Origin: Terramyces sp. JEL0728
Lineage: Eukaryota; Chytridiomycota; Chytridiomycetes; Rhizophydiales; Terramycetaceae
Direction: 5' to 3'
NCBI GenBank assembly: GCA_027603945.1
Contig: JADIIU010000216.1
Coordinates: 1-13,482 of the forward strand
DNA: 13,482 bases
The notes below the pieces were generated by a model, which was not told the origin of the DNA, ran no database searches, and saw only the letters and a program-made list of their open reading frames with translations. Positions within the stretch are counted from its first letter, which is position 1. Each line of letters starts with the position of its first letter. The translations under genes were made by a program, and so were the position numbers. Positions 82 to 13,482 of the stretch are shown here, piece after piece.

Positions 82-1022
82 TCACTTGCGGGGATTCACT
101 GCAGTGGAATGCAAGATATTTCCATTCAAATCAATGAAATCCACGTGCAAACTAGATTTGGTAATATCTGCTGCAACGAATCCATAAGATGAAGCACCCC
201 AAACCTCGGTAGATCCTTGAATATTATTATTGCAAAGACCTTCAACTTGACCGCCTGCTCCACTCTGGACAAACAAAGTGTTTTGATATTTCGCAGATTT
301 CAATGTATGTTTATGTCCGTACATGTAAGACGTGACTTTGTACTGTTGCAAGAGCTCGAGGAGACTTCCCATGTAAACACCAGTTCCATCACACGTCACC
401 AAATGATGATGGCCAAGAACAATTGTGTATTCGTAGGTATTCATTTGCTGTAATTGAGCTGCAATCCAGTCCAGTTGACGTTGATGTGTTTGGTTTTCAA
501 TTGTCCACCCTTTGGCTTTGAAGTCATCTGCAAGTTGATCATTATATCCCTGTATTAACATTTCTTACATAAAAAAGCAAGTCGGTATCAATAAATACCA
601 AACCAACAGTGAATCCCTGCAGTTGAATGGTTCTAGTGTAAAAGTAATCCGGCAAATTCCAACGTGGATGAATTTTGCTGTATTCGATTTCAGCAACTTC
701 ATTACCGTACCAATCTGATTTAGTACAGATTACCGTGATTGCCGAGAATGCAGTACCATGGTAACTGGCTGGTCAGCCCAGTAAAAGAGTTCAACCACAC
801 ACTTTGCCATTTCGGATCAGTTACAGAGGTTACCCCATTGTTATAGAAATTGTCTCCAAGCGCAATAACGAATTGCGCATTCCTTTGAGTACCAACAGAA
901 TCCATTTGCTTGCCAACTGCCTGCAATTCAGTGATATGATAGTCTGCACCCCAATCACCCAGCGCAAGGAAAGACAGCTTGGTTTGTGCAATAACCAGTT
1001 GAAGCAGAACAGCCAATTTCAT
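82..1022 (-). CDS. Purple (tartrate-resistant type 5-like) acid phosphatase, secreted
   Basis: A metallophosphoesterase that hydrolyses phosphomonoesters at a two-metal centre. Three exons (1022-734, 714-569, 549-82) give 300 residues, close to mammalian TRAP. The family's metal-ligand blocks are all present: GDWG (D23), GDNFY (D57, Y60), GNHDWY (N95, H96), GHHH (H192) and YGHKH (H224, H226). The 19-nt introns are GTAATCTGTACTAAATCAG (715-733), which splits the Asp codon of GNHD, and GTAAGAAATGTTAATACAG (550-568), between codons. Without removing them the frame breaks inside conserved blocks. I chose the Met at 1022 because it starts a short hydrophobic signal-like segment (MKLAVLLQLVIAQ) just before the catalytic domain; an in-frame Met at 1046 is the alternative. 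The protein is probably secreted or vacuolar. An AATAAA on the minus strand (61-66) lies 16 nt after the stop. Confidence 0.93.
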
Positions 1023-1426
1023 TACTTTGGTTATGGTTCCACTCAATTTATAAAGTACTTTGAACGTGCATCGATTTGAATATTGCCATCTCTATCAACA
1101 GACAAAACGTGGTTCTAGAGCATCTTTGGTTATTCTTTTTTATATGGTAAATACTTTATACAACTACTAGAAAGAAGAGCACCTGCCATTAGATAAAACC
1201 TGATTCAATCAATTAGACTCTGCTTCGAGATCGTAGTTGTCCATACCATGTGTTGCAAGCACAAGCTTCTGGAAACACGTTGTGACAAATTAGGTGTCAT
1301 TTGACAAAAAAGAATTGGTTGATATTTCTCAAACGGCAATGTTAAAGAGTGGATCGTAGCTGAAATATCAATGCACTTTGTGTCAATTTAAAACAAAAAT
1401 TTACAATTCCTTTGCATTTATTAGAT
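1023..1426. other. Gap with leftover protein-like minus-strand frames
   Basis: This gap lies between the acid phosphatase start and the Sel1 ORF stop. The right part shows three successive minus-strand open stretches in different frames: a short one just after the Sel1 stop, then 1387-1205, then 1289-1209. The last reads KLVLATHGMDNYDLEAESN before a stop, which looks like a protein C-terminus. None has a start codon and no canonical 18-21 nt intron joins them cleanly. They may be a decayed 3' part of the Sel1 gene or another relic. The part next to the phosphatase start (about 1023-1200) should hold its promoter; no clear TATA box is seen. Confidence 0.3.
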
Positions 1427-1729
1427 TCATCTTCTGGTAAAAGTATTTTGCTTTAAATGAGGTAGAGGGCGGGTGAGCGACTCAATTTTCTGTCGGGCAG
1501 ATGTATTTCCTTGGTTTGCTGCCTTTTGGTACCATTCCAGCGCAGTTGAAAGATCTTTATCTTCGTAGAGTTTTCCAAGGTTGTATTGTGCAGATGAATT
1601 TCCTTTATCTGCAGCATTTTTGTACCGCTCGAATGCCTTTGCATAATCTGGTTCTACCCCCTTGCCGTACTGATAGAGATAACCAATGTTGTTTTTTGCG
1701 AAAAATGTGGGTAGCAATGGTTGAACCAA
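1427..1729 (-). pseudogene. Sel1-repeat (SLR) protein, 5' end missing or broken
   Basis: The translation carries tandem Sel1-like TPR repeats: NNIGYLYQYGKGVEPDYAKA followed by AAD-KGNSSAQYNLGKLYE and ALEWYQKAANQGNTSARQKI. Spacing of about 30-36 residues and the A-x-x-x-LG-x-x-Y and W/R-Y-x-x-AA positions are typical. Sel1 repeats are helical-hairpin scaffolds for protein binding. The frame is closed upstream by a TGA and contains no ATG. No 3' splice site in the right phase is visible, so the N-terminus is missing or the gene has decayed. An AATAAA (minus strand, 1417-1422) lies a few nt after the stop, which suggests this is a genuine 3' end. It is probably a fragment of a longer repeat protein, or a gene broken by an indel in the A6 run near 1698-1703. 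Confidence 0.6.
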
Positions 1730-1785
1730 CCGCAGATATCAAATATCTACAGTAAATATTTTGGACTGCAATCCTACCGCATTAA

Positions 1786-1890
1786 TATTTGCAGACATTG
1801 GAATTCAAAGATCTGACGAATAAAGATATTCTAATTCAGTGCTTGGGATTGATTGGTGATGTTTCCGAGAATTTTTCAACAAATGACTAA
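1786..1890 (+). other. Exon-like open stretch upstream of the 1859-2786 gene, frame +2
   Basis: Between an in-frame TAA (1783-1785) and TAA (1888-1890), the plus strand encodes a peptide ending GLIGDVSENFSTND, preceded by LEFKDLTNKDILIQC. It has normal amino-acid composition and no ATG. It overlaps the start of the next gene in a different frame. A one-base change in the T5 run at 1872-1876 would fuse it to that gene's frame, so it may be the true upstream coding part, broken by an indel. No 18-21 nt GT-AG intron achieves the same shift. Confidence 0.3.
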
Positions 1891-2786
1891 ATTCCAATAC
1901 ACACAAAATAGAGAGCGTTTTCTACTTGCTGGATTCCTATTAAAGTGCAAAGTGGCAATTCCTAAAATCCAGCTAATGACCAATCTTTCTATATTAATGT
2001 TGAATGACTGGAAGCAGCTTTTGATTGATAATAATCTGTTTCAACTTACATTACTGGAATACAATGCAGTTTTGGATCATTATTCACAAAAGTATACTCA
2101 TCCAACACTGCAATTGATAGAGATTGACGATTTCAAGGATAAGTGGCCAGAGAAACATTTATTGCTGCCCAATAGAATGGAAGAGTTTTTGTTTAGCGGT
2201 TTAGGTAGATATTACTAACGTAGAAACGAATCCTTCAGTGGATAGTGCTGTTGCGGATGGGGATATGTTTAATGGGAAATCGCTTTTTAGAACTCGCAAC
2301 CCACCTATTCCAACAACAAATACAACTGCAGACATATATCATGCATTAGTGGATCAATATCTGCACAGGAATTCAGCAAGATCTATTTCTGGATCAAACA
2401 GCCAGCCCATCAGAAGCAACTCTTTTAAACCAAACAGTGTAAACAAGAAATCCACACAAAAACCAGTACTTGCATTTCACAAACGGCAGTCGATTTCTCA
2501 GTCAAGTAGCCCGCAAGTTCATTCTTCAACGCTATCATCTAGAAACCAAAAATCAACTCAACCTTTAATTGAAAAATATCTATTTTCAACTCCAAAACAT
2601 TCTTCAACTGAATATTGGGATTTGCCAACCAAAAAGAGCATTCCATCTGCAGAGTGCACTCTTTCACAACCTCCTGTTGAAACCCCAATAGATTATTTGG
2701 ACGACACAGAAATTGAGCAATGGGATGAAAGTGCATCAGAAGTAGAAGTTGAGATACATACAGATTCAGAGAGTGGATCTATTTAG
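1859..2786 (+). CDS. Unrecognised protein with Ser/Thr-rich middle and acidic tail
   Basis: I do not recognise this protein. Two exons (1859-2204 and 2224-2786) joined over the 19-nt intron GTAGATATTACTAACGTAG give 302 residues with the frame exactly kept, and the intron has a perfect TACTAAC-like branch. Residues 1-115 look like a helical globular segment rich in Leu, Ile and Lys. The rest is low complexity: many Ser, Asn, Gln and Pro, then an acidic end with DDTEIEQWDESASEVEVE, suggesting a disordered regulatory tail. The ATG at 1859 is the first Met of the frame but may not be the real start, because a protein-like frame lies just upstream. Similarly, an open frame at 2812-2943 ends on an AATAAA and could be a further 3' exon. 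It converges with the kinase gene at 2989. Confidence 0.6.
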
Positions 2787-2811
2787 AAGACAGTGCAAGG
2801 ATGGCACATAA

Positions 2812-2943
2812 GGAAAAGCTGTAGATTTACATGGAAATATGCTTGAATTGCATTACAAACCCGCCTTCCCATTGTATTTCAATCCAAAGAAATCTGGATA
2901 TTTGTGTTGCAAAAAGAACACTTATACGGGAAATATCAAATAA
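2812..2943 (+). other. Possible additional 3' exon or relic
   Basis: An open frame follows a TAA at 2809-2811 and reads through KPAFPLYFNPKKSGYLCCKK to a stop at 2941-2943. The stop lies inside AAATAAA (AATAAA at 2939-2944), as in several other genes here, so this could be the real end of the upstream plus-strand gene. A GT at 2773 with an AG at 2812 would keep the frame, but the implied 40-nt intron is twice the local norm and lacks a clear branch site. Left as a candidate. Confidence 0.25.
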
Positions 2944-2988
2944 AAAAAGTATTCAGTTCTATAAATAATTAAAAAACTTTTATTGCAA

Positions 2989-3915
2989 TTAACTGGTTAA
3001 TAACGCAGACAATTCCCTTCGTTCACTCTCTTGCTTTTCAATGGATATATCTTGTGTTGCAAACCCAAAATCAATTATAAACACTCCACCATTTTCATCG
3101 AGCAACACGTTTTGTTTTTTGATATCATTGTGTAGAATCCCTCTTTCATGAATTTTATCAAGTGCATCTAATAACTGCTGTTGTTTTTCATTGGTTAGTT
3201 CATTCAAGTTTGTAGTTGTACCACATACAGAAAACCCAATGCAATACCATTTGTTTGCCAAATATCCTTGGAAAGCCAACACAGGAATGCAATCACCCTG
3301 CAAATCTGATAATTGCTTGTATATTCCAACTTCATTTTGCATTTCCTCCAACATATCTTCATATTTTTGTAATTCACCAACTTTTAGAGCAATGTGTTGT
3401 CCATTAACGTTTTCCAAATATACAGTACATCTACCGCTACCTAAAACTTTTGAAAATTTAAAATCATGTAAATAAAATTGATGACAAATGCCCTGCGTCA
3501 GAGTTGTTTCAGTGCTACTCCTAGCAGATATTCCCATTCTTTTACCATTCTTTCCATTACCAGCATTACCAGATTGTTTATTGATTCTGTTCTTGTTAGT
3601 GTTTTTTCTATTTGGTTGATTATCCCTTTTTGAACTTTTCCTTGAACTGCTAATTGAACTATCCTTTGCATTGAGCCTAGTAGTGATTGTGCGTGGTTCT
3701 CTATGTGTCTGTAAATCTGATTCTTTGATAACACTGTTAAAATAATTGAAACATTGTAAAATGGTCGGACTTGGATTACTACTTGTGTACTGGATTCCTG
3801 GTGATAAATATAACTCAATGGTAGCAATTCCATTTCGTGTAGTGGTTTTAGTATATGCGAACCAAGTTGTTTCATAAGAAGTAAGAATCCCGAATCGCAC
3901 CTTGTTTATAGTCAT
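2989..3915 (-). CDS. Nuclease-fold (Crinkler-associated type) plus protein kinase-like protein, 5' end disrupted
   Basis: From the Met at 3915 it encodes 308 residues. Residues about 150-295 form a small kinase domain: glycine loop LGSGRCTVYL, Lys178 in ALKV, Glu195, catalytic loop ILHNDIKKQN (H262, D264, N269; HND in place of HRD) and IDFG (D282). The domain ends about 25 residues after DFG, as in short kinases that occur in large families in Glomeromycota and chytrids. The N-terminal VRFGILTSYETTWFAY, with QLYRYM just upstream at about 3916-3933, matches the C-terminal half of the restriction-endonuclease-like domain found before such kinases. The two domains are joined by a basic, Asn/Ser/Lys-rich linker (about 80-140). 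The frame is open upstream only to 3981, so the annotated Met is internal to the nuclease domain and the 5' half is broken. An AATAAA (2979-2984) follows the stop. Confidence 0.75.
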   Translation of the reverse strand: MTINKVRFGILTSYETTWFAYTKTTTRNGIATIELYLSPGIQYTSSNPSPTILQCFNYFNSVIKESDLQTHREPRTITTRLNAKDSSISSSRKSSKRDNQPNRKNTNKNRINKQSGNAGNGKNGKRMGISARSSTETTLTQGICHQFYLHDFKFSKVLGSGRCTVYLENVNGQHIALKVGELQKYEDMLEEMQNEVGIYKQLSDLQGDCIPVLAFQGYLANKWYCIGFSVCGTTTNLNELTNEKQQQLLDALDKIHERGILHNDIKKQNVLLDENGGVFIIDFGFATQDISIEKQESERRELSALLTS

Positions 3916-4152
3916 ATATCGATATAATTGTTTGATGGCTGACGCAGCAGCACTTTTGCTTTTGTGGTAGCCAGAAATATACTACAGCATTATTGCCTGT
4001 CTTTTCGAAACTTGATGGTAACTCGACTGTTAACGAGTACAGTTTTTATTAAGAGGTCTAGAAATGAGGTTATTTCGAATTTGCCATTCTCTGACTAATC
4101 AAAGACGAATTTCAAACAAATGTTGCAAATTGAGGAATACCATGGTATACAA
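3916..4152 (-). pseudogene. Disrupted 5' part of the nuclease-kinase gene
   Basis: Upstream of the internal Met the same frame continues (SAIKQLYRYM) to a TAG at 3982-3984. Two other minus-strand frames are open in turn across about 3950-4110, with protein-like content. No 18-22 nt GT-AG intron connects them in phase, so either small indels or decay separate them. The PPP4R4-like gene's stop lies immediately to the right (4153), leaving little room for a promoter. A plus-strand ORF here (4064-4288) looks like an antisense shadow. Confidence 0.4.
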
Positions 4153-6729
4153 TTACTTTTTATTTAATAGTTCGGTGCTCTTTTTTGTTACAACTTTTTT
4201 CTATGTCAGCAAGTCGCTCACCTTTTTTATATCCACTTCCATTGATTTCACTTCTTCCTTTTTCAGCTGTGCCGGAGGTGTGTCTTGATTATTTAAATTG
4301 TACCTTTCTTGAAACTTGGTGCTTTTGGAGTTGGTGGTTTAATAGGCGGCAGCTCTGGCTTTTTAGTAGTACTTATTTTCATTTTTGAGCTCGAGGGTTC
4401 TATTTTCCTAGTTGATCCAGTTGTAATCTTTTTCACAAGCTCCTTTTTTTTGATTGTCAAATTTACAAAGTACTTTGACTCGTATTCTTCCTTTTGCAGA
4501 TCTTTTTCAGGTGTATCCATTGATTCCCACTTGTATGCGGAAAATAAATAAGGATCAGTGATACTTTCATTTGAATTCAAAGTTTTCATTCTCTCATTTC
4601 CAAAGGCTTCTAAACCAAAAGCCTGTGCGACATTTGCAGGTTTTTGGCAGCAGCTTTCCTGATTCAGTAAGCCGTGTTGTGCGTAGAATCTGTTCATTGC
4701 TGCCATGACTTCGTTGTCTGAATCCCTCGTTGCCAATGGCTCCGTTGCATCAATCAATTTACTAAGCAACAAGGAATCTGTAGGCAGGCGGATAATATGT
4801 CTCACCATTGGAAGCAGCGCAACGTACTTTAGTCTGATATTGGGAATCGGGTCTCTGGATAAAGCAAAATATGAAGTCAAGAAATATTCTCTGAAAAACT
4901 TTCCAGAGAATTGTTCAAGAATGCGTTCGCATACATCGAAAAACAATATTCTGATATGGCAATTCTGGTCTTCTTTTACATCCAAGTTAATCAAAAAATA
5001 CCCAGGAATTGTCTGAGCAGATTTTCTTGGGTTTCCATTTTCCTGATGTTGCGGAATATAGAAACTAGTATGTTAATTGATTTGATTTTGATAGTTACAG
5101 GAAAGTTATCTGTGATTAGTTTAAATAGCAATGGTGAATGTTGTTCGTACAATGTTTCTGAATCTATTATTGATATTAATGCATTAAAGGAATCAAGAAC
5201 AAACAAGTGAGTTCTCCAGTCAATATTTGGTGTGTTGTCGAAACTTTTTCTCTTTTCAAGAATTAATTTCAAAATAGACTCTGTATTGTTTCCCTGTTTG
5301 AATGTAGGATCTCTACCAAAGTTGTTTAATATCTTTTCAATGTTTTTGAATACTGGAGTGTAAACCAGCTTGTTTTTAGACAAAACCAAGCGTGGAAATA
5401 GCTCCTTTAGTATTCTGTAGCAGTTGCTACCGAGCATGTCCGTTAACTTGTTAGTATTATGTACCTCGTGGAAAAACGATGCAAATGTGATTGATATTTT
5501 TTCACTCTCGTCATGCACAAAGCTAGCGAGCAGTTTTTCCAGTTTAAAAGACTCAAATAGTGCTGGTTTCATTGCTTTGACAATGGCCGGATAATTGTAA
5601 GCACAGTTCTGTCTAATATTCTCGTCGCTTGATGCTGATAGTGTTTGGTAGTAAGAAACAAAATATTTCTTGTCTGATTCTTTAAGTTCGTCTTTCGCTG
5701 ACCAAATAAATATCCCAAACAATTCAGATATTGTTTTTACCAACTTTGGGTTGTTTTCTTCTACAATTTTTTTCCAATAAGGTATATAATTGTTTACCCG
5801 CTGATCTAGATCCATAAACTCTCCGTAATTAGTATAATTTGTAATTGCCGCGGCTTGCACTGTGATTTCCTCGTCTTTGAGTAGCTCCAGGTACACTGGA
5901 AATATATGCTTTTTTGTAATAGAACTTCCAAGGGCTTTTATGACAGGGTTCAGATGGAAACACATGGATTTCCTCACTTCATAATCCGTATCCTCGCACA
6001 GATTTATAAACTTTTGAAGCACAATCTGGTCAATCTTTTTTGGATCCAGCCGGCATATTATAGTTCCCAGTAGCCTTCCTGTCCAGATTCTAAATTGTGC
6101 TGGTTGTCCTAGGTTTAAATCTCCTATTGTATCTGGCAAAATCTGTACTTAGCATCAATTACTTTTATCCTGACTTCTTCCGACGGTAGTTTGTTGATGC
6201 AGCTAATGAGTACATCCTTCCACACCTTTGACACCTCTTCATTCTTGTATTTAAGCAAAACATTTGCAATCTCCAGTACCTGGTTTACCTTTTGTGCAGG
6301 TAAGCGTGAAATTATTTCCTCTATTGCAAGTCCTACTTCCCGCTGTACTGCCAGAGGTTCCAATTTAACATTATGCTACATTAGTCAATGTAACCAGTAT
6401 TTCAGGCAATAATTTGTCGAAACAGAAATCTCTGTGCGTCCCCATTGATATTCTTTTTAAATTTCTGATCAGACTGCATTTTTGGACCATAGTGCCATTC
6501 CTAAATATTAGGTTTATTTACTTTACAATGTACAGGTATTTATCAGTATCTGAAAGATCATCATCCACTGAAAATTGCTTGATTTCCTCTTCGGTCTATT
6601 TAAAATATCAATTACCCTTCCTGTCTTTTTTGACATGCGGACTTCTGCCATTCCTCTTATTTCGTCTGCTAATGATAGCTCGTCTGCGGGCACAACCTCA
6701 TCCCAATTCCAATCGTCTACTGTAGTCAT
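4153..6729 (-). CDS. PPP4R4: HEAT-repeat regulatory subunit of protein phosphatase 4, PPP4R4 type
   Basis: Seven exons (6729-6616, 6595-6522, 6500-6395, 6375-6163, 6142-4304, 4283-4222, 4200-4153) give about 818 residues, near the animal PPP4R4 length. The PPP4R4 N-terminal signature is recreated only by splicing: GR|TEEEIKQFSVDDDLSD at residues about 37-54. Other family blocks are DTDYEVRKSMC, NCAYNYPAI and FSGKFFREYF, within HEAT-like helical pairs. The tail is Lys/Pro-rich. In animals this protein binds the PP4 catalytic subunit in the cytosol. Introns are 20, 21, 19, 20, 20 and 21 nt (6596-6615, 6501-6521, 6376-6394, 6143-6162, 4284-4303, 4201-4221). The last is least certain; without it the protein ends at the TAG inside it. 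One frameshift is needed: the T6 run (A6 at 4993-4998 on the plus strand) must gain one base. An AATAAA lies just before the stop. Confidence 0.9.
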
Positions 6730-6751
6730 ATTATTGAAAAGGAAATTCTCT

Positions 6752-6911
6752 ATGAGTGACGTGTTCCATGACGTGATTCAAGGCTTCACTGAACAACCCT
6801 ATACTTTAATTAATGTGTTGCCATCTATTGATACAGGCGGTTATTTATGAAGCAGCTGGTGTTTTAAAATGGTTACATTCAAATATATTAGTCCTGGACT
6901 TGCACGTATGA
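6752..6911 (+). CDS. Small unrecognised protein, two exons (candidate)
   Basis: An ATG at 6752, divergent from the PPP4R4-like start with 22 nt between them, opens a frame MSDVFHDVIQGFTEQPYTLI. Removing a 22-nt GT-AG segment (6815-6836, branch-like ATTGAT then ACAG) keeps phase 0 and continues with AVIYEAAGVLKWLHSN to a TGA at 6909-6911, 45 residues in all. Without the intron the frame stops at 6850 (32 residues). The 3' end would overlap the tail of the SYLF-SH3 gene on the other strand by 24 nt. Composition is protein-like and amphipathic-helical, but I recognise no family. The proposed intron is one nt longer than the others here. Confidence 0.4.
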
Positions 6912-7936
6912 TACCGGAAAGACTCCCTTTACACCATCGCAAGACCCTTCAAACCACTCGCCTTCCTGCTTAACGACCCACACCTCCTGCCCCTCTTTGA
7001 TTGGCAAATCACCATCTTGCTGTGGGCTGAAATCGTACAATACAACAGCTTTTCTTGGTTTGCCTGGCTTGCTTGCTGCAGCTGGTTTGACGCTGGCACC
7101 AGCAGGCTTTGATTGTTTAGGTATGAGTGTATTTTTTTTAGAGAAAATGTTTAGTTTAGGCTGAGGGTTTCTGTCGAGACTTCCTGGATAAATAGTATTG
7201 TCTGAGCCGGCTACATCTTGGTTTGTCTTTGTACCGAGATTTCCAAATTTAAGATTCAGCATTCGGTACAAAGGGTCAGCATGTGGGGGTGGGGGTACTT
7301 TTCCCGACAGGATTTCCATGCCCCTAACTTTTCGACCATATAATTCCTTGTTTGCCTTATCTCGTGGTGTGATAATTGTTCCTTCAAATGAAATCCCGGC
7401 AAAGAAACCTTTAGATTTGGAATAAGAATATATTGGTGCTGGATGAATGATGGCTAATATTAATTAGAGTTACATCCTCCAGCTTCTGATGAGCGTCCGG
7501 TTGGTCCTGCTGCAACAGAGATGTTTCCCCCAAGAGTGCAATTTCCGTGAGCAAACGCATGTACTGCTGCTGAATTATTCAAAACAAATATAACATCGGT
7601 TATTTGCGCTCCAATTTGCGCTCCGCTAAGTTAATTACTATTACACTCCAACCCCACCAGCTGCAATGGCACAAGGAGCTGACCATGTTCCATCGTCTAA
7701 TTTCGCAACTACCAATCCAGTTCCTGCTCTTCCAGACCACAAAACTCCGGCTTTGACAATGGTAATGATTGCAATTCTAAAGTCAAGACCGCTTACCCTC
7801 TAGCTTTTTCAATAATGTTTTTTGGAATGAGAGTGGCATCAAGCTGATTAGTTCCCTTTACAAAATGGTCAAGGATAGAAGCTGCTTTATCGCAAGTGAT
7901 AGCCAATGATTCTGGCAGTGGATTATGCAACTTCAT
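6888..7936 (-). CDS. SYLF (Ysc84) lipid/actin-binding domain plus SH3 protein, Lsb3/Ysc84-like
   Basis: Four exons (7936-7797, 7776-7645, 7625-7474, 7453-6888) give 329 residues. Residues 1 to about 195 are a SYLF domain: start MKLHNPLPESLAITCDKAA, then GIAIITIVKAGVLWSGRAGTG, DGTWSAPCAIAAGG, CTLGGNISVAAGPTGR, YSYSKSKGFFAGISFEGT and ILSGKVPPPP. Residues 275-329 are an SH3 domain (ALYDF-like VVLYDF, GEWFEG, GVFPVSYV). In yeast such proteins act at cortical actin patches in endocytosis, with SYLF binding phosphoinositides or actin and SH3 binding Las17/WASP prolines. Introns of 20, 19 and 20 nt (7777-7796, 7626-7644, 7454-7473) all fall inside conserved SYLF strands and are required. The Met at 7936 matches the usual family N-terminus. 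A 12-nt tandem duplication beside intron 2 repeats GAQI. Confidence 0.95.
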
Positions 7937-8021
7937 TAATGTTGGAGAAAATTTACGCGTAAACAATCACGTATTTTCATCGGTTAATTAATTTTACCAC
8001 AATTGGTCAAGATTTTACTTT
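7937..8021. promoter_or_regulatory. Possible divergent promoter with ACGCGT and GTAAACAA
   Basis: This is the 85-nt gap between the SYLF-SH3 start (minus) and a small plus-strand ORF. It contains ACGCGT at 7955-7960, identical to the fungal MCB core, directly overlapping GTAAACAA (7959-7966), a forkhead-type site. In yeast these mark cell-cycle genes. With one copy each this may be chance. Confidence 0.25.
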
Positions 8022-8217
8022 ATGACTCGAATGCAGGCTGTGAAAAGAGAGGACTGAGGAAAATGTTGGATATTTAGGCTTGAATTCCAAGGCAGACAGC
8101 ATTCGGGAATTGATAAATACAGCCCGGACTTGTATTGCAATGATTGGAGATTGCCATGTTTTTATGGCTATGCTGATCAAGCCTCCAGTGGACCACTCTA
8201 AAGTACAGTTTAGTTGA
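8022..8217 (+). CDS. Small unrecognised ORF with a frame break (candidate)
   Basis: The ATG at 8022 starts MTRMQAVK, then the frame stops at a TGA. The +1 frame is open from 8044 to a TGA at 8215-8217 and reads NVGYLGLNSKADSIREL and GDCHVFMAMLIKPPVDHSK, with the look of real coding. The two could be joined by a 19-nt GT-AG segment after GCT (purine-rich, with no good branch site) or by a one-base change in an A4 run, giving about 58-64 residues. The antisense ORF at 8007-8222 has a poorer composition and is taken as its shadow. No family recognised. Confidence 0.35.
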
Positions 8218-8261
8218 GGCAAAATACATTACTTTTTTGCATGTTTATTTAAAGATCAAGC

Positions 8262-8993
8262 CTAAATGTTGAGATGCTTGTCAAAGAAGGTAGCTGCCTT
8301 GGAACAAGCGTCATCTCTTGCTTCTTTAACCACGCTTTCATCACCACGGACGGCAAAACCATGCTTAGTGCCAGGATAATCAACAACAGTCAAATCTACG
8401 CCAGTTTTCTTGAGTATTTGAAGACATTCTTGCTTGATTGGGCCAAACATTTGATCTTGTTCAGCCAACAACAATAATACAGGAACATTGATCTTGGATA
8501 AATCCTTTTCTGGTTCCAATAGAGATGGATGAGCAGAAGCTACAGCTTGCAACCCTAGTTGGCCATAATGCAAAGTGTATTTGCCACCAAAGCAATAGCC
8601 AATAGCACCAATATTGGCTTTGCCCAAACCCTTTAATTGGTTGATGACATGGTCAGTTGTTTTCATATTGGCTTCAGTAGGAAACATCTTTACAAATTCC
8701 AATGTTTCGTACTTTAGATTGCCGGGTTCGCCAATACATAAACCGTTAAAGTAGTCAGGCATGTAAACAGGGATACCAGCTTGACTTGCCATTCTGTCAC
8801 ACAATAACTGAGCGTTTTTTGCTTGATAGCCAAAGATATCATGGATGTACAGAATTGCAGTGTTTGATTGCTTTTGGTGCGATGGCAAGGCAACATAGCA
8901 ATCCAGCTCTCCAAGTTTGGTAACGGTTCCAGAAGGAGTTCCATTCCACAAGTAGCCTTCAACGCAGCAGGGTCCAAGAGTTTCAACAGTCAT
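8262..8993 (-). CDS. Dienelactone hydrolase family protein, copy 1 (intronless)
   Basis: An alpha/beta hydrolase of 243 residues in one exon. The dienelactone-hydrolase triad is clear: Cys134 in GAIGYCFGGKY, Asp180 in LLLLAEQDQMF and His211 in GTKHGFAVRG. Other family blocks are the N-terminal ELDCYVALP, YIHDIFGYQ and VYMPDYF. Bacterial members open dienelactone in chlorocatechol breakdown; fungal and animal homologues (including CMBL) act on small lactones or esters, and the substrate here is unknown. The start at 8993 aligns with copy 2. A TATAAATA lies 28-35 nt upstream, and an AATAAA (8244-8249) follows the stop. It sits head to tail with copy 2, from which it differs by lacking both introns. 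Confidence 0.95.
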   Translation of the reverse strand: MTVETLGPCCVEGYLWNGTPSGTVTKLGELDCYVALPSHQKQSNTAILYIHDIFGYQAKNAQLLCDRMASQAGIPVYMPDYFNGLCIGEPGNLKYETLEFVKMFPTEANMKTTDHVINQLKGLGKANIGAIGYCFGGKYTLHYGQLGLQAVASAHPSLLEPEKDLSKINVPVLLLLAEQDQMFGPIKQECLQILKKTGVDLTVVDYPGTKHGFAVRGDESVVKEARDDACSKAATFFDKHLNI

Positions 8994-9489
8994 TTTAATA
9001 AGGTAGACTGAAATCTAGCTTATTTATACGTGTTTCGGGCGTGGTTAACCCTGGTTCTAATGGTTTTCATGACTCAATTCAGGGATCGGGGGCATTTCGG
9101 TAAAAGCGAATACTACAAGCAGCGCAACCTAAACAATTGGTGGATGCCGGATATGATTACTAACGCAGACATTATACTATGTTAGTAGTGCTACAGTCGT
9201 CAGTAGCGGTTAGTCTACAAATTGATTTTTTTATTTTGATTTCGATTGACCCTGAATTCATAACTTGTGACCCGAATGTTGAAAGCAGTACTTTTTAATC
9301 CATTAAAGACCTACCCCCTGCAGCTTCGAGTATTTTTCCACTTGGTTTAATTGGAATATTTTTCCGTTGAATTATAGGCAAGCTCTGGGACGCAGAGTCC
9401 AAGGATTGTATGCGAAATGCTTATCGTTAAAGATATGTTGGAATGGATAGCAGTTGCCAGCAAACTCGCGGAAATAATTCAGGAACCAT
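8994..9489. other. Intergenic region between the two hydrolase copies
   Basis: This 496-nt stretch holds the copy 1 promoter at its left end. The middle has no convincing gene. On the minus strand, 9420-9295 is open for 42 codons without an early ATG and reads LPIIQRKNIPIKPSGKI and then EAAGGRSLMD before a stop, which resembles a protein C-terminus. On the plus strand, 9162-9174 carries TACTAACGCAG, an excellent branch plus 3' splice motif, but no flanking exon could be identified. Both may be relics. Confidence 0.3.
9021..9028 (-). promoter_or_regulatory. TATA box of hydrolase copy 1
   Basis: TATAAATA on the minus strand, 28-35 nt upstream of the ATG at 8993. This implies a very short 5' leader if it is functional. 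Copy 2 has no equivalent motif at this place. Confidence 0.45.
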
Positions 9490-10251
9490 TCATTTATTCA
9501 AATGCTTGCCAAAGAATGCAGCAGCGTCAGCACAAGCCTTGTCTCTGGCATCCTTCACCACATGTTCATCTCCTCGAACAGCGAATCCATGCGTAGTACC
9601 AGGGAAATCAACAACAGTCAAATCAACTCCATTCTTCTTCAAATAATCCAAAGTAGCAGTCCTGGTTTCTCCTTCAAATGACTGGTCCTGTTCAGCCAAT
9701 AACAGCAAAGTCGGTGCTCTGATTTCCTTGATATCGTCGTCCGGCACAAGTCTAGATGGATGCGCAGCACTAACAGCCTTCAATCCCTTCTGTCCAAAAT
9801 GGAGAGAATACTTTCCACCCCAGCTATGGTAAAACAATTATTACCAGTAACCAATTGCGCCAATTTCAGTCTTTCCAAGTGCGTTCAAATCCTTGATTGA
9901 TTGCGCGACCCGCTTCAAGTTATCTTCAGCAGGAAACAATCCAAGAAAGTCTCTGAAATCCATTGTAAAGTTACCTGGTAGTCCAAGCGACTTTTTGACG
10001 AAAAAGTCTGGCATGTAGACCGGAATGCCTTGTTAGTGATATCTACCTGACTGCGCTGCTAATCTATCACATAGCAGTTTGTTGTTTTGGAATTGAATTC
10101 CAAAGATATCATGGATAAAGAGGATGGCAGTGGATTGTTTTTTGGATTTAGGTTGAGATACATAGCAATCCAATTCGCCTAGTTGGACTATTGAGCCTGT
10201 TGGTGTTCCATTCCACAAGAATCCCTCAGCACAAGCGTCGGTTAAAGTCAT
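9490..10251 (-). CDS. Dienelactone hydrolase family protein, copy 2 (two introns)
   Basis: Three exons (10251-10047, 10028-9845, 9823-9490) encode 240 residues that align end to end with copy 1. The triad is Cys130 in GAIGYCWGGKY, Asp176 in LLLLAEQDQSF and His208 in GTTHGFAVRG. Intron 1 is the 18-nt GTAGATATCACTAACAAG; intron 2 is 21 nt and splits the nucleophile codon TG|C. Reading through either intron gives a stop codon within it. The C-terminal codons AAT AAA before the TGA stop themselves spell AATAAA, so stop and poly(A) signal coincide. The promoter lacks a TATA box but has a CACGTG. Substrate unknown; divergence from copy 1 suggests a distinct role or expression. Confidence 0.95.
9824..9844 (-). 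other. 21-nt intron splitting the catalytic Cys codon
   Basis: It begins GTAATAATTG and ends TTTTACCATAG. Removing it joins TG to C, restoring GYCWGG, which aligns with the uninterrupted GYCFGG of copy 1. Retention gives TGG TAA, an immediate stop. Confidence 0.92.
10029..10046 (-). other. 18-nt intron (shortest in the window)
   Basis: GTAGATATCACTAACAAG contains the 5' GTAGAT, the branch CACTAAC and the terminal AAG. Removal joins AQSG to IPVYMPD, matching copy 1 QAGIPVYMPD. Its length is a multiple of three and it carries an in-frame TAA. Confidence 0.92.
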
Positions 10252-10287
10252 TTAAAGAGTGGGTGAAAACCGGAGATTTTGTACGGT

Positions 10288-10293
10288 CACGTG
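10288..10293. promoter_or_regulatory. CACGTG palindrome upstream of hydrolase copy 2
   Basis: An E-box-type CACGTG lies 37-42 nt upstream of the ATG at 10251. Such sites bind bHLH factors in fungi. A single copy, so function is only a possibility. Confidence 0.25.
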
Positions 10294-10360
10294 CTTAGAA
10301 TGCGAATGTTTGGGATTGCAAAAGTTATTTACATTTATTCAATAGAGGGAAAACAGCCAA

Positions 10361-11113
10361 TCAAGCATTCATAATTAAACTGGCTGCTTTGTAATGCTTG
10401 TTCTGCACTGCGACTTGCTCGTCGACTTTGACGCGTTCATCGTTAATCAGGGTTTCAACAATACTGTACTGGCCGCACAACACCGCTGTTTTGAGTAGCT
10501 TATTGTCATCAAAGGACGGATCAATTCTATTCAACAATAATCGGAATACTCTTACGTGTCCAAATCTAACCGCGTTCATAATTGCTTTATCTGTAACTTT
10601 AACTCGATCAATCATCAGCTGCACTGCCTTGTAATTACCAGTTAAACAAACAGACAGGAAAAGTGTGTTGGTAGGCTGGATATCGAGTAGTAGATATTCA
10701 AATAGATGGAAATAAGCTTGATGGAATAGTTGTAATTTGGTTTGCAGCTCTAAACCTTTGTACTGCATTTGAATAATAAAAAACAGCTGCACTTGTCTGG
10801 GAATTGCAATATCCATTATTTCTAATTTATTAGTGATCTGCAGGCTGATCAATTCATAGATTTGATCCGCTTCAAGTAAATCAATACACAATCTATTGTA
10901 ATCTCGTATACCAGCTAGATTGATTTTCATTGAATGCTTGAATTCTTGGTTGCTTGTAGAATTGAAAAATTGATTTGGATTTAATTCAGGAACAAGTGGG
11001 AGATTGGATTTGCAGCTGTATAGGAATTGGTAGTATGTTTTCAAGTCTAAATATAAGGCGGTTGAGAGCAAGAGGTCGTAAGGAAGCATAAATCTTTTGC
11101 TTTTTACCGCCAT
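10361..11113 (-). CDS. F-box-like / ankyrin-repeat protein
   Basis: A single exon of 250 residues. The N-terminal segment LPYDLLLSTALYLDLKTYYQ (about 10-29) resembles an F-box start (LP, then helix, then a second helix ending in CKSN). Residues about 155-250 form degenerate ankyrin-type repeats: NTLFLSVCLTGNYKAVQLMI, KAIMNAVRFGHVRVFRLLLN, NKLLKTAVLCGQYSIVETLI, then a partial one ending in HYKAASLIMNA. Repeats of this style (short, with V-R-LLL and GH/G-x-Y turns) are abundant in chytrids. If the F-box is real, the protein would present targets to an SCF ubiquitin ligase. An AATAAA (10334-10339) lies 22 nt past the stop. The N-terminal assignment is tentative; the ankyrin part is firmer. Confidence 0.7.
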   Translation of the reverse strand: MAVKSKRFMLPYDLLLSTALYLDLKTYYQFLYSCKSNLPLVPELNPNQFFNSTSNQEFKHSMKINLAGIRDYNRLCIDLLEADQIYELISLQITNKLEIMDIAIPRQVQLFFIIQMQYKGLELQTKLQLFHQAYFHLFEYLLLDIQPTNTLFLSVCLTGNYKAVQLMIDRVKVTDKAIMNAVRFGHVRVFRLLLNRIDPSFDDNKLLKTAVLCGQYSIVETLINDERVKVDEQVAVQNKHYKAASLIMNA

Positions 11114-11263
11114 GTGATTGACAACACTTTGTCCGGGAAACGAGTGGGCTAATGAGATGAGAGATGCAGCTACTCGGTAATGATTGGAAGGTAGTATATC
11201 AATTTGTACCGTGGTTTCCGAGAAAATGATTTCTGATCTAGAAACATCTTTTTTAAAATCATT

Positions 11264-12025
11264 TTATTTGCTTTCTTTGGTGGTGATATTTAATGTAGCC
11301 GACTTTGGAATAATATTAATCTTTAGTTTAGATCCATACGCGATATTCAAAAAACATAGCAGAGGAAGGATAATAAATTCGATTGGAATCAATATTCCAG
11401 TGATTGATGGCCAGGTATTGAGGATAAATGGAATGTACACCACTGTGCGTACAAGACAAAGCACAAGTGCAAATACAATTGAAGTAATCGCCAGTGACTC
11501 TAATCTCTGTGCTCCGTTGGTTTTAATAGGGCCAAGAATCGAGAAAATCTTTAACGCAAAGTAACTGGCTACTATCCCAATATACACTGTATTCATCACA
11601 GTTTTCACTACTCGTTCAGTCGATGGTTCAGATAATACACAGATACCCATTTCCGTCGTGGTAGAGTAAAAGAACTGGCCGACTACTCTTGGTCCAGCAT
11701 CCATCAGAATGAATAAGAAAACCCAGAAATATTTCCAGTCTGTTTCCAAGTATATCACGCGTAGAGTGAATATCCAATCGATATTAGCTTCGACAAAATT
11801 CTTTGTGAATCCTTGCAAGTTCCATAGAATACAAATACTCGTCGATCCTTTCAGCACCAGATACATTGTAATTATTTGGTTCAGTAGCAGTACCAGGCCG
11901 AATAGGATATGGCAGTAGCCAATTACTGAAAGGTTTTGTTTTGAATAGTATATTCCTGTTGCGAATATGTTTATAACTGCAGCGGCGAATTCTATAATTG
12001 ACGCTATGAATTGTGATTCTTGCAT
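11264..12025 (-). CDS. Multi-pass membrane protein of a tandem family, copy 1 (intronless)
   Basis: 253 residues in one exon. About six hydrophobic helices are visible at residues 7-27, 35-58, 98-117, 140-163, 177-202 and 207-230, with a weaker one near 82-93. The tail after residue 231 is short and polar. It shares many blocks with the next copy: GYCH near 37, KNF.EANIDWIFTLRV (about 75-90), KTVMNTVYI (141-149), SWPSITGIL-like NTWPSITGIL and PLCFLNIAYGSKL. I recognise no named family; conserved Asp, Trp, Arg and His residues in or near helices would suit a transporter or receptor-like role, but that is a guess. The stop codon lies inside AAATAAAA, so stop and poly(A) signal overlap. It lacks both introns of its neighbour. 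Confidence 0.8.
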   Translation of the reverse strand: MQESQFIASIIEFAAAVINIFATGIYYSKQNLSVIGYCHILFGLVLLLNQIITMYLVLKGSTSICILWNLQGFTKNFVEANIDWIFTLRVIYLETDWKYFWVFLFILMDAGPRVVGQFFYSTTTEMGICVLSEPSTERVVKTVMNTVYIGIVASYFALKIFSILGPIKTNGAQRLESLAITSIVFALVLCLVRTVVYIPFILNTWPSITGILIPIEFIILPLLCFLNIAYGSKLKINIIPKSATLNITTKESK

Positions 12026-12237
12026 AATGGAAAAAAGATTGTTTGCAGATGTTTCTTTGGATATCTTTGTTCATATGTGGAATCACTGCTATATTTAAGA
12101 GATTGGAGTTCAAATAGCTGGTTGTTTACGTGATTTGTCCAATTCAGAGTATAGAAGAGCGTTGCCGATCAGAAATAACCTCAACTATACTGCAGTCATT
12201 CATGCATAAAAAACACTAAATTCATTTACTAGTATAT

Positions 12238-13104
12238 TCATTCATTGGTATTCATACTCTTTTTAGCAACTTCGCTAATGGTGCTATGCTTAGTAGTCTG
12301 AGTATCTACTTTGATGCCAGATGCACCAGAAGTGCCGCGGACACGAAGTTTAGATCCAAACGCGATATTGAGGAAACACAACGGAGGCAAGATGCACATC
12401 TGGATAGGAACCAAAATACCCGTGATAGACGGCCAGCTATTGAGGATATACGGAATGTAAAACACAGTTCGCGTGACACAGAGCATGATTGCAAACGCGG
12501 TTGATGTAATTGAGAGAGATTCGAATTGCTGTGAATTGGTTCCTATGTGTCTGATCAACTGAACCATCTTGTAGATAAAGTAGCAAGCAACGATAGCAAT
12601 GTACACTGTATTCATCACTGTCTTTACCAACCTTGGTGTTGCTGGATCCAACAAAGTACATAGACCTTAATGTTATAAAAGAGTACCTGACGGCTGTACA
12701 GTAGTTACATACAAGCACAGTGCAACTATTCTTGGGATTGCGTCCAAAGCGGCAAATAGGAATAGCCAAGTGTACTTTACCCACGGGGTTCGTTCCAGAA
12801 AGTAGACGCGAAGAGTAAAGATCCAGTCAATGTTTGCTTCAGCAAAGTTTTTGGTTATTCCCTATCGTTACAATAACTTTACCTGAAGAAACCATGCGCC
12901 GCAAAAGGTAGTTGTGTTTCCCTGGAGTATCAATGTAAAAGTGACAATTTGATTTGCAAGATAGACAACCCCGAATACCATGTGACAGTACCCAATCAGA
13001 GTCCGTTTGTTCTTATAATAGTACGGAACCATTACGATGATATTGATAATACCAACGATTAGTTCAGCCAGAGTGGCTATATACGACGGAGTGATGGCGA
13101 CCAT
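12238..13104 (-). CDS. Multi-pass membrane protein of the same tandem family, copy 2 (two introns)
   Basis: Three exons (13104-12883, 12861-12687, 12665-12238) encode 274 residues that align along their length with copy 1. Introns are both 21 nt: 12862-12882 (branch TGTAAC) lies between Gln and Gly of FLQ|GITKNF, and 12666-12686 (branch TATAAC) lies in PSG|LCTLLDP. Both carry in-frame stops if retained. Hydrophobic helices occupy the same positions as in copy 1, and residues from about 233 form a longer polar tail rich in Thr, Ser and Lys. Part of the 3' coding region is identical at the DNA level to the third copy. Function unknown. Confidence 0.85.
12368..12422. repeat. 55-nt block identical to 13428-13482
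   Basis: The sequence from TTGAGGAAACACAACGGAGG onward is the same in the last helix of membrane copies 2 and 3. The match runs to the window end, so its true length is unknown. Flanking sequence differs between the copies, including the rest of the tail. Confidence 0.9.
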
Positions 13105-13309
13105 TAGTTGTGAATTTCAATTGGCAGTGCTTTCAAAAATCAGTGCAATACTTGAGTGGACAATGAGAAAATTGGAGATTGTAACGTCATGAATGTGTGA
13201 AATATGAAGCGCGTCATAGTTGATATATGGATAATAGCAGACGCTGCAGGATAAATACAATCCAGCATCAATAAGCTATCTAGATGAACGCACTTTTACA
13301 ATCTCATAT

Positions 13310-13482
13310 TTATTTATAGTTTTGCACTTTTTTTGTACTAGTATTCACATCTTCTGTCTTGCTACTCTGCGTCTCCAAATTACCTGATTTTGCACTGCGG
13401 AACTTTAATTTAGATCCATAAGCAATGTTGAGGAAACACAACGGAGGCAAGATGCACATCTGGATAGGAACCAAAATACCCG
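13310..13482 (-). CDS. Multi-pass membrane protein of the same tandem family, copy 3 (3' part only)
   Basis: The frame runs from the window edge to a TAA at 13310-13312, giving 56 residues: GILVPIQMCILPPLCFLNIA, YGSKLKFRSAKSG, and a polar tail ending KKVQNYK. It corresponds to the last transmembrane helix and cytosolic-type tail of copies 1 and 2. The upstream part lies outside the window. AATAAA overlaps the stop region (TATAAATAAATATG). The tail sequence has diverged although the helix is identical at DNA level to copy 2. Confidence 0.85.
   Translation of the reverse strand, partial: GILVPIQMCILPPLCFLNIAYGSKLKFRSAKSGNLETQSSKTEDVNTSTKKVQNYK
13428..13482. repeat. 55-nt block identical to 12368-12422
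   Basis: Partner of the block in copy 2; it continues beyond the window. It is consistent with recent duplication or gene conversion within the tandem array. Confidence 0.9.

Follow-up and report, generated by a model that had tools for sequence, protein, structure and literature searches.

Introns of 18 to 21 bp have been described from an intracellular symbiosis, which we read as the nucleomorph of Bigelowiella natans (extracts of PMC10245619), and a length of 18 nt is given for B. natans introns in extracts of PMC12316389. According to the consulted extracts of the respective papers, Stentor coeruleus has introns of 15–16 nt, with the branch adenosine mostly at nucleotide 10 and no strong consensus, and its Slu7 and Prp18 are listed as not available (PMC9505925); the lengths in the intracellular parasite Mikrocytos mackini are very narrow (16–17 nt; 224 introns; PMC10245619); Trichomonas introns of 23 nt are among the shortest known, in an intron-poor genome with a second intron type of 56–196 nt (PMC12316389); and the ciliate Paramecium has short introns only, of ~25 nt (PMC5014332). 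The fungus Cryptococcus neoformans likewise has introns termed ultra-short, a term that in the consulted part of PMC11913375 means under 60 nt, with an average of 56 nt and a small group under 40 nt that is poorly spliced. According to the same paper, SPF45 (RBM17) takes the place of U2AF65 on short human introns whose tracts are weak. Comparably short introns were thus, among the literature examined in extract, those of a relict nucleus, ciliates, Trichomonas and intracellular parasites. Among the matches listed from the open-licence PMC literature, as far as their extracts go, no report of a chytrid with such introns was found.

The window analyzed here is the whole 13,482-nt stretch of DNA from the chytrid Terramyces sp. 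JEL0728. We take the genus to consist of soil saprotrophs, and JEL is presumably a culture-collection code. All 16 introns claimed in the original prediction could be located in the window, one of 18 nt and five each of 19, 20, and 21 nt. A GTA start, said to be nearly general, was seen in 14 of them, the other two having GTG and GTT, and all 16 end in AG. All lie on the minus strand except 2205–2223, which is on the plus strand. The introns, together with one further possible intron and two intronless genes that serve as internal controls, are as follows:

550–568, minus strand, 19-nt intron of the acid-phosphatase-like gene 82–1022; gene model and Pfam
715–733, minus strand, 19-nt intron of the acid-phosphatase-like gene; GNHDWYGN restored on removal
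2205–2223, plus strand, putative 19-nt intron between two open frames of gene 1883–2786; frame and motif only
4201–4221, minus strand, putative 21-nt intron of the HEAT gene, close to its 3′ end, with GTG donor; frame and motif only
4284–4303, minus strand, putative 20-nt intron, HEAT gene; frame and motif only
4973–5001, minus strand, possible 29-nt intron, HEAT gene; flat-prior model, frame only, boundaries uncertain
6143–6162, minus strand, putative 20-nt intron, HEAT gene; frame and motif only
6376–6394, minus strand, putative 19-nt intron with GTT donor, HEAT gene; frame and motif only
6501–6521, minus strand, putative 21-nt intron, HEAT gene; frame and motif only
6596–6615, minus strand, putative 20-nt intron, HEAT gene; frame and motif only
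7454–7473, minus strand, 20-nt intron of the SYLF (Ysc84)-SH3 gene 6888–7936; junction within the Ysc84 match
7626–7644, minus strand, 19-nt intron of the SYLF-SH3 gene, with its junction on the border of the Ysc84 match
7777–7796, minus strand, 20-nt intron of the SYLF-SH3 gene, with its junction beyond the Ysc84 match
8262–8993, minus strand, intronless dienelactone hydrolase; internal control for gene 9490–10251
9824–9844, minus strand, 21-nt intron of the second dienelactone-hydrolase gene 9490–10251; GYCWGG restored
10029–10046, minus strand, 18-nt intron, second dienelactone-hydrolase gene
11264–12025, minus strand, intronless paralogue; internal control for gene 12238–13104
12666–12686, minus strand, 21-nt intron of the membrane-protein-like paralogue gene 12238–13104; placed by hand
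12862–12882, minus strand, 21-nt intron, same paralogue gene 12238–13104; placed by hand

A gene model restricted to intron lengths of 17–23 nt made 17 calls in the window, namely 14 of the 16 introns and three doubtful ones (3550–3569, 5447–5464, and 7844–7861) that were not counted, being in-frame or unneeded. The gene at 12.2–13.1 kb was left unmodelled by it, and its two introns are those placed by hand. At 4973–5001 a branch-like A stands at the usual position and the next AG lies 14 nt further. This one window junction fits 29 nt and departs from the length rule, and the data are compatible with longer introns in a minority of cases.

The best supported of the window introns are those of the phosphatase, second dienelactone hydrolase, 12.2–13.1 kb, and SYLF-SH3 genes. 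Splicing of the phosphatase raised its Pfam Metallophos score from 25.6 bits for one exon to 52.5 bits. The two dienelactone hydrolases (9490–10251 and 8262–8993) share 61% identity over 239 columns with no gap at either junction, and 12238–13104 shares 54% identity with the intronless 11264–12025, one junction adjoining a one-residue gap. In the SYLF-SH3 gene, two of the three junctions fall within the Ysc84 match. The six putative introns of the HEAT gene and the one at 2205 were placed by frame and motif only. HEAT and PPP2R1A-like matches were found for the HEAT gene, whose narrower PPP4R4-like identity is a name given in the original prediction. A homologue search with the HEAT ORF gave no hit, probably since its full-length relatives are longer than that search admits. 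All nine chosen proteins spliced with such introns matched a Pfam family above its cut-off, and 22 of their 35 introns fall inside a matched Pfam domain. DRC4 as spliced here (six introns of 20–23 nt) agrees in 480 of 480 residues with its GenBank counterpart from Terramyces sp. JEL0728, which identifies the organism as a chytrid of the Rhizophydiales; the public DRC4 gene model is thus one that already splices predicted introns of this size.

From the assembly that contains the window (15.0 Mb), ~220 kb were sampled. A motif scan over lengths of 10–120 gave a peak at 19–21 nt, with counts of 117, 106, and 74 at lengths 19, 20, and 21 against 36, 32, and 30 in a Markov control, the next highest count outside this range being 53 at length 54 (control 30). 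Given a flat length prior from 14 to 160 nt, a gene finder placed 263 of 345 introns at 18–23 nt. Few introns were recovered with a flat penalty and no splice motifs, as codon bias is a weak signal by itself. The original prediction had set a genome-wide mode well above 30 nt against itself; the sampled mode of 19–21 nt equals that of the window, so that within the ~220 kb the prediction passed its own test. The sampled population is narrow with a mode below ~25 nt, as in ultra-short-intron genomes.

The sampled loci contain 354 model introns, which are 70% AT. Their branch adenosine is mostly the 14th–16th nucleotide of the intron (13–15 nt precede it), while TRA is absent at the expected branch place in 40 of the 354. 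The short branch-to-AG spacing originally predicted was confirmed, its range of 3–6 nt being amended to 4–7 nt, mostly 5–6, from the A to the final G. A joint spacer table showed an excess at branch index 13–15 with 4–7 nt to the last G, and the combination of index 13 with 5 nt was counted 64 times, where spacings 20–59 averaged 4.3. The two spacers vary independently (p = 0.72, n = 269 introns). One fixed branch spacing (33 of 36) was rejected, as it came from a seed pattern forcing an index of at least 14; without that minimum, the index was 13–15. The 5′ consensus is AAG|GTAATT, not GTAAGT, and the usual G at +5 is lost. GT-AG ends and a YTRAY branch motif at a narrow position a few bases before the AG, as in U2-type introns, are thus supported in a true fungus.

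From these sequence features, we regard the segments as almost certainly major (U2-type) spliceosomal introns of a flagellated chytrid, in which most detectable introns have shrunk to 18–23 nt with a mode of 19–21. That they are instead no introns, and are translated, bypassed by frameshifting, or sequencing errors, could be argued from the segments that are multiples of three and from the 27% of the 81 model introns in the 21-nt class that lack an in-frame stop. This is highly improbable, since segments of 19 or 20 nt alter the reading frame, the GT..YTRAY..AG anatomy recurs at narrow spacing, and conserved domains are continuous only when the segments are removed. Moreover, two near-identical contig copies show single-base differences inside two introns and no indel in predicted exons, and both genic indels between them sit inside the segments. 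Excision at the DNA level, as of the internal eliminated sequences of ciliates, would agree with short, AT-rich insertions in genes, but we find it scarcely credible for a chytrid genome that encodes Prp8, Slu7, Prp18, U2AF2, and U2, and for segments whose GT-AG ends and branch motif are a spliceosomal signature.

Somewhat less remote, although still very unlikely, is that introns of this organism are ordinarily longer and that short ones make up only a small part of them. The flat-prior gene finder did place 79 of 345 introns at 24–160 nt, yet these scatter over 137 lengths (~0.6 each) without a mode, and its 151-nt and 49-nt calls in the window resolved, under the restricted model, into two short introns with an exon and into one intron of 19 nt, respectively. 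Loose motifs also gave a weak, diffuse excess above a reversed-order control at spacings 16–300 (121 ± 47 for GTA-YTAAY and 97 ± 37 for GTA[AT]-YTAAY), whereas there was none with the GTAATT donor (7.9 ± 10.2, same spacings and control). No comparable peak was observed up to a spacing of 399: the GTA-YTAAC spacing gave 29.3 per nt at 13–15 against bin averages of 2.0–4.6 from 16 to 399.

The same genome encodes a U2 snRNA (140 bits, carrying GTAGTA), a piece of Prp8, U2AF2, Slu7, and Prp18; Prp8 and U2 snRNA mark the major spliceosome. U2AF2 itself rose from 251.7 bits for the best unspliced stretch to 324.7 bits when spliced (cut-off 310.3). Loss of Slu7 and Prp18 owing to the near AG was rejected, as both genes were found. 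No match was obtained for U1 snRNA in a search of a kind that does not establish absence. Of the components singled out for inspection in the original prediction, U2 and U2AF2 were thus found, while U6 was not found by Rfam or by searches with 28-, 13-, and 17-base core pieces. Two Rfam hits that fell short of the gathering score were rejected, both being located in coding sequence; the 28-base core had no match with three mismatches allowed; and two matches to the 13-base piece were rejected as lacking U6 flanks. The 17-base half gave 13 matches, 12 with two mismatches each and one exact, the latter rejected since its region reads as RecQ-like coding sequence without an Rfam U6 match. The spliceosome adapted to almost no spacing, presented as implied in the original prediction, is inferential; the components found here match their families ordinarily.

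With U2-type splicing as the preferred reading, U2 would pair with a branch motif that nearly touches the 5′-site duplex. With the AG reachable from the branch site, a polypyrimidine tract would have no room and be unused. The independent variation of the two spacers suggests that the spliceosome may limit the 5′ site–branch and branch–AG distances separately, and the tight space left for U1/U6 pairing may explain the loss of the G at +5. More tentatively, Terramyces could have an intron-rich fungal genome near the physical minimum of the spliceosome, with two independent spacers (13–15 and 5–6 nt) and with U2AF2, Slu7, and Prp18 kept. The GTAATT 5′ site might then have co-evolved with U1 and U6 that are unrecognised by standard models or themselves interrupted, and U2AF2 might act without a polypyrimidine tract, perhaps on T-rich sequence preceding the branch, or be bypassed by another factor.

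As far as the cited extracts go, Terramyces shares the 18–21 nt range and narrow distribution with the B. natans nucleomorph, which is a relict algal nucleus, whereas the introns described here are in a fungal nucleus of 15.0 Mb. Stentor has a similarly narrow branch position, and its most abundant intron starts with GUAAUU, the commonest Terramyces donor. Terramyces differs in its branch A at nt 14–16 within YTRAY and in the presence of Slu7 and Prp18, in which respect it is not Stentor-like. The very narrow lengths of M. mackini are also shared, but the Terramyces model introns in the sampled loci alone outnumber those of the parasite; Trichomonas is unlike Terramyces in its scarcity of introns and its second type, and Paramecium introns are longer. 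Terramyces brings the minimal-spacing problem to the opisthokonts, a group with solved spliceosome structures, and combines ~20-base introns with factors seemingly dispensable for such tiny introns. It is now testable what determines the minimal spacing between 5′ site and branch, whether a polypyrimidine tract is necessary for U2AF2, and whether Slu7 and Prp18 play a role with an AG 5–6 nt from the branch. Users of gene finders with larger minimum intron settings should be cautious. In a Prp8 tree, the genome was placed next to Phlyctochytrium with modest support (SH-aLRT 88).

All 16 introns of the original prediction were located in the window, which comes from an assembly of 15.0 Mb in 231 contigs, and the predicted lengths of 18 nt (one intron) and 19, 20 and 21 nt (five introns each) were confirmed. 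All 16 end in AG and 14 start with GTA. Both the observation and its reading as ultra-short spliceosomal introns hold. Gene models limited to 17–23 nt recovered 14 of the 16, and the introns at 12666–12686 and 12862–12882 were, unlike the other 14, placed by hand. Three extra calls of the same models in the window (3550–3569, 5447–5464, and 7844–7861) are doubtful. At 4973–5001, a junction is compatible with a 29-nt intron whose branch-like A is at the normal place, 14 nt before the next AG.

Across 218 kb of this genome, the pattern GT[AG]..YTRAY followed by AG 1–6 nt past the motif was found 117, 106, and 74 times at lengths of 19, 20, and 21 nt; a third-order Markov control gave 36, 32, and 30. 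The highest count at any other length between 10 and 120 nt was 53, at 54 nt (control 30). When the distances from the first G to the branch A and from there to the first AG were tallied as separate spacers, the excess fell at branch indices 13–15 (the 14th–16th intron nucleotides) combined with 4–7 nt, the most enriched cell containing 64 cases where the mean was 4.3. Likewise, GTA-to-YTAAC spacings numbered 29.3 per nt at 13–15, against bin averages of 2.0–4.6 over 16–399. With motifs in reversed order as control, looser motifs gave a diffuse excess at spacings of 16–300 (121 ± 47 for GTA and 97 ± 37 for GTA[AT]), while GTAATT donors showed none over the same range (7.9 ± 10.2); some longer introns may therefore exist, though without a visible mode.

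Of the 345 introns called by a simple gene finder, which used splice motifs with weights trained on short candidates and a flat length prior of 14–160 nt, 263 measure 18–23 nt, three 16–17 nt, and 79 24–160 nt; these counts include some introns twice where a few loci overlap. The 17–23 nt model, in which the length range is presupposed and roughly a sixth of the calls are doubtful as judged from the window, yielded 354 unique introns in genes scoring at least 15 outside the window (5, 4, 93, 130, 81, 31, and 10 at 17 to 23 nt, respectively). The excess of GTA-YTAAY motifs, about 178 introns in 213 kb, corresponds to roughly 12,500 in 15.0 Mb, and the 312 model introns in 200 kb, false calls included, to roughly 23,000 genome-wide, both estimates being rough because the assembly contains some near-duplicate contigs.

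In 303 of the 314 model introns that carry TRA close to their end, the branch A lies at index 13, 14, or 15 (150, 124, and 29, respectively), and 5 or 6 nt from the last G in 275. The two spacers vary independently (chi-square p = 0.72, n = 269), a pattern more in keeping with a limit on each spacer than with a single limit on overall length. Donors follow the consensus AAG/GTAATT, and in the window as in the sampled loci L009–L030 T replaces G at position +5. Among the 354 introns, +5 is T in 51% and G in 15%, GTAATT is the most frequent hexamer (64, against 15 for GTAAGT), and the acceptor is TAG in 221. In 21-nt introns, stops are modestly more common in the reading frame of the gene (73%) than in the other two frames (60%). 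The commonest donor is the same as the start of the most abundant Stentor intron, GUAAUU (PMC9505925).

Beyond the observed anatomy, restored frames and gene content, we infer that U2 and the 5′-site duplex (U1, later U6) would be placed nearly side by side, and the weak +5 position may reflect crowding between them. The AG would be selected by its nearness to the branch, and the polypyrimidine tract would be unused, since branch motif and AG are only a few nucleotides apart. According to PMC11913375, Cryptococcus introns average 56 nt and those below 40 nt are spliced poorly, so the Terramyces spliceosome should differ somehow; no such difference came to light in the components recovered. A U2 snRNA (140 bits) carries an intact GTAGTA, a Prp8 piece of 1,196 residues matches solved Prp8 chains along its length, and the U2AF2 match spans both RRMs and the C-terminal domain. 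Slu7 and Prp18, listed as "not available" for Stentor in PMC9505925, are both encoded in Terramyces, ruling out their loss in this tiny-intron chytrid. No U1 or U6 snRNA was recognised in the whole assembly, U2 being canonical; possible reasons are divergence, one or more introns within U6, an assembly gap, or limits of the search. Ultra-short introns are of a kind already known in other organisms, and among the matches listed in the open-licence literature we found no report of them in a chytrid.

Removal of the introns restored protein domains. All nine spliced proteins compared with Pfam, picked by us for their introns, exceed a family cut-off, with coverage of 295/295 for coproporphyrinogen oxidase, 199/200 for GAS, 204/211 for IFT46, and 362/363 for the RCC1-like domain. 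U2AF2 scores 324.7 bits when spliced and 251.7 in its best raw stretch (cut-off 310.3). Of the 35 introns in the nine proteins compared with Pfam, 22 lie inside a matched domain and 13 outside. Flagellar genes at three loci (DRC4/GAS at L011, NYD-SP28-like at L029, and IFT46 at L025) have five or six tiny introns each.

Paralogues provide a further control. The dienelactone hydrolase gene at 9490–10251 shares 61% identity with its intronless neighbour at 8262–8993, and both junctions are gap-free. The gene at 12238–13104 is 54% identical to an intronless paralogue at 11264–12025, with a clean first junction and a second adjoining a one-residue gap. The window holds two tandem families, dienelactone hydrolases (8262–10251) and a membrane-protein-like family (11264–13482), of which an additional copy seemingly extends past the window end; in both compared pairs one member lacks introns. 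Two contig copies, L031 on C199 and L032 on C111, are 98.9% identical across 3.1 kb; uncollapsed haplotypes or a recent duplication would account for such a pair. In their two predicted genes, both single-base indels fall in predicted introns (21 vs 20 nt each) and none in exons; the remaining indels are intergenic or at the locus end. On another contig, C184, one pair of Ras-family matches is present twice (6033 and 11851).

Terramyces sp. JEL0728 is assigned by NCBI taxonomy to Chytridiomycota, Rhizophydiales, and a Prp8 tree of 39 rows is consistent with a fungus close to chytrids. The dynein regulatory complex subunit 4 (DRC4) of contig C2, after removal of six introns of 20–23 nt, is identical to a GenBank protein of this strain over 480/480 residues; the public gene model therefore already has tiny introns. 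Five of its six junctions lie within gap-free aligned segments of eight relatives, chosen by us among the 120 matches listed, and the sixth follows residue 1. The reading frames of two chytrid-like DRC4 relatives among database proteins diverge from Terramyces DRC4 at its intron positions (P0227 at residues 62 and 371, P0155 at residue 435), a hint that these relatives may have introns at the same positions.
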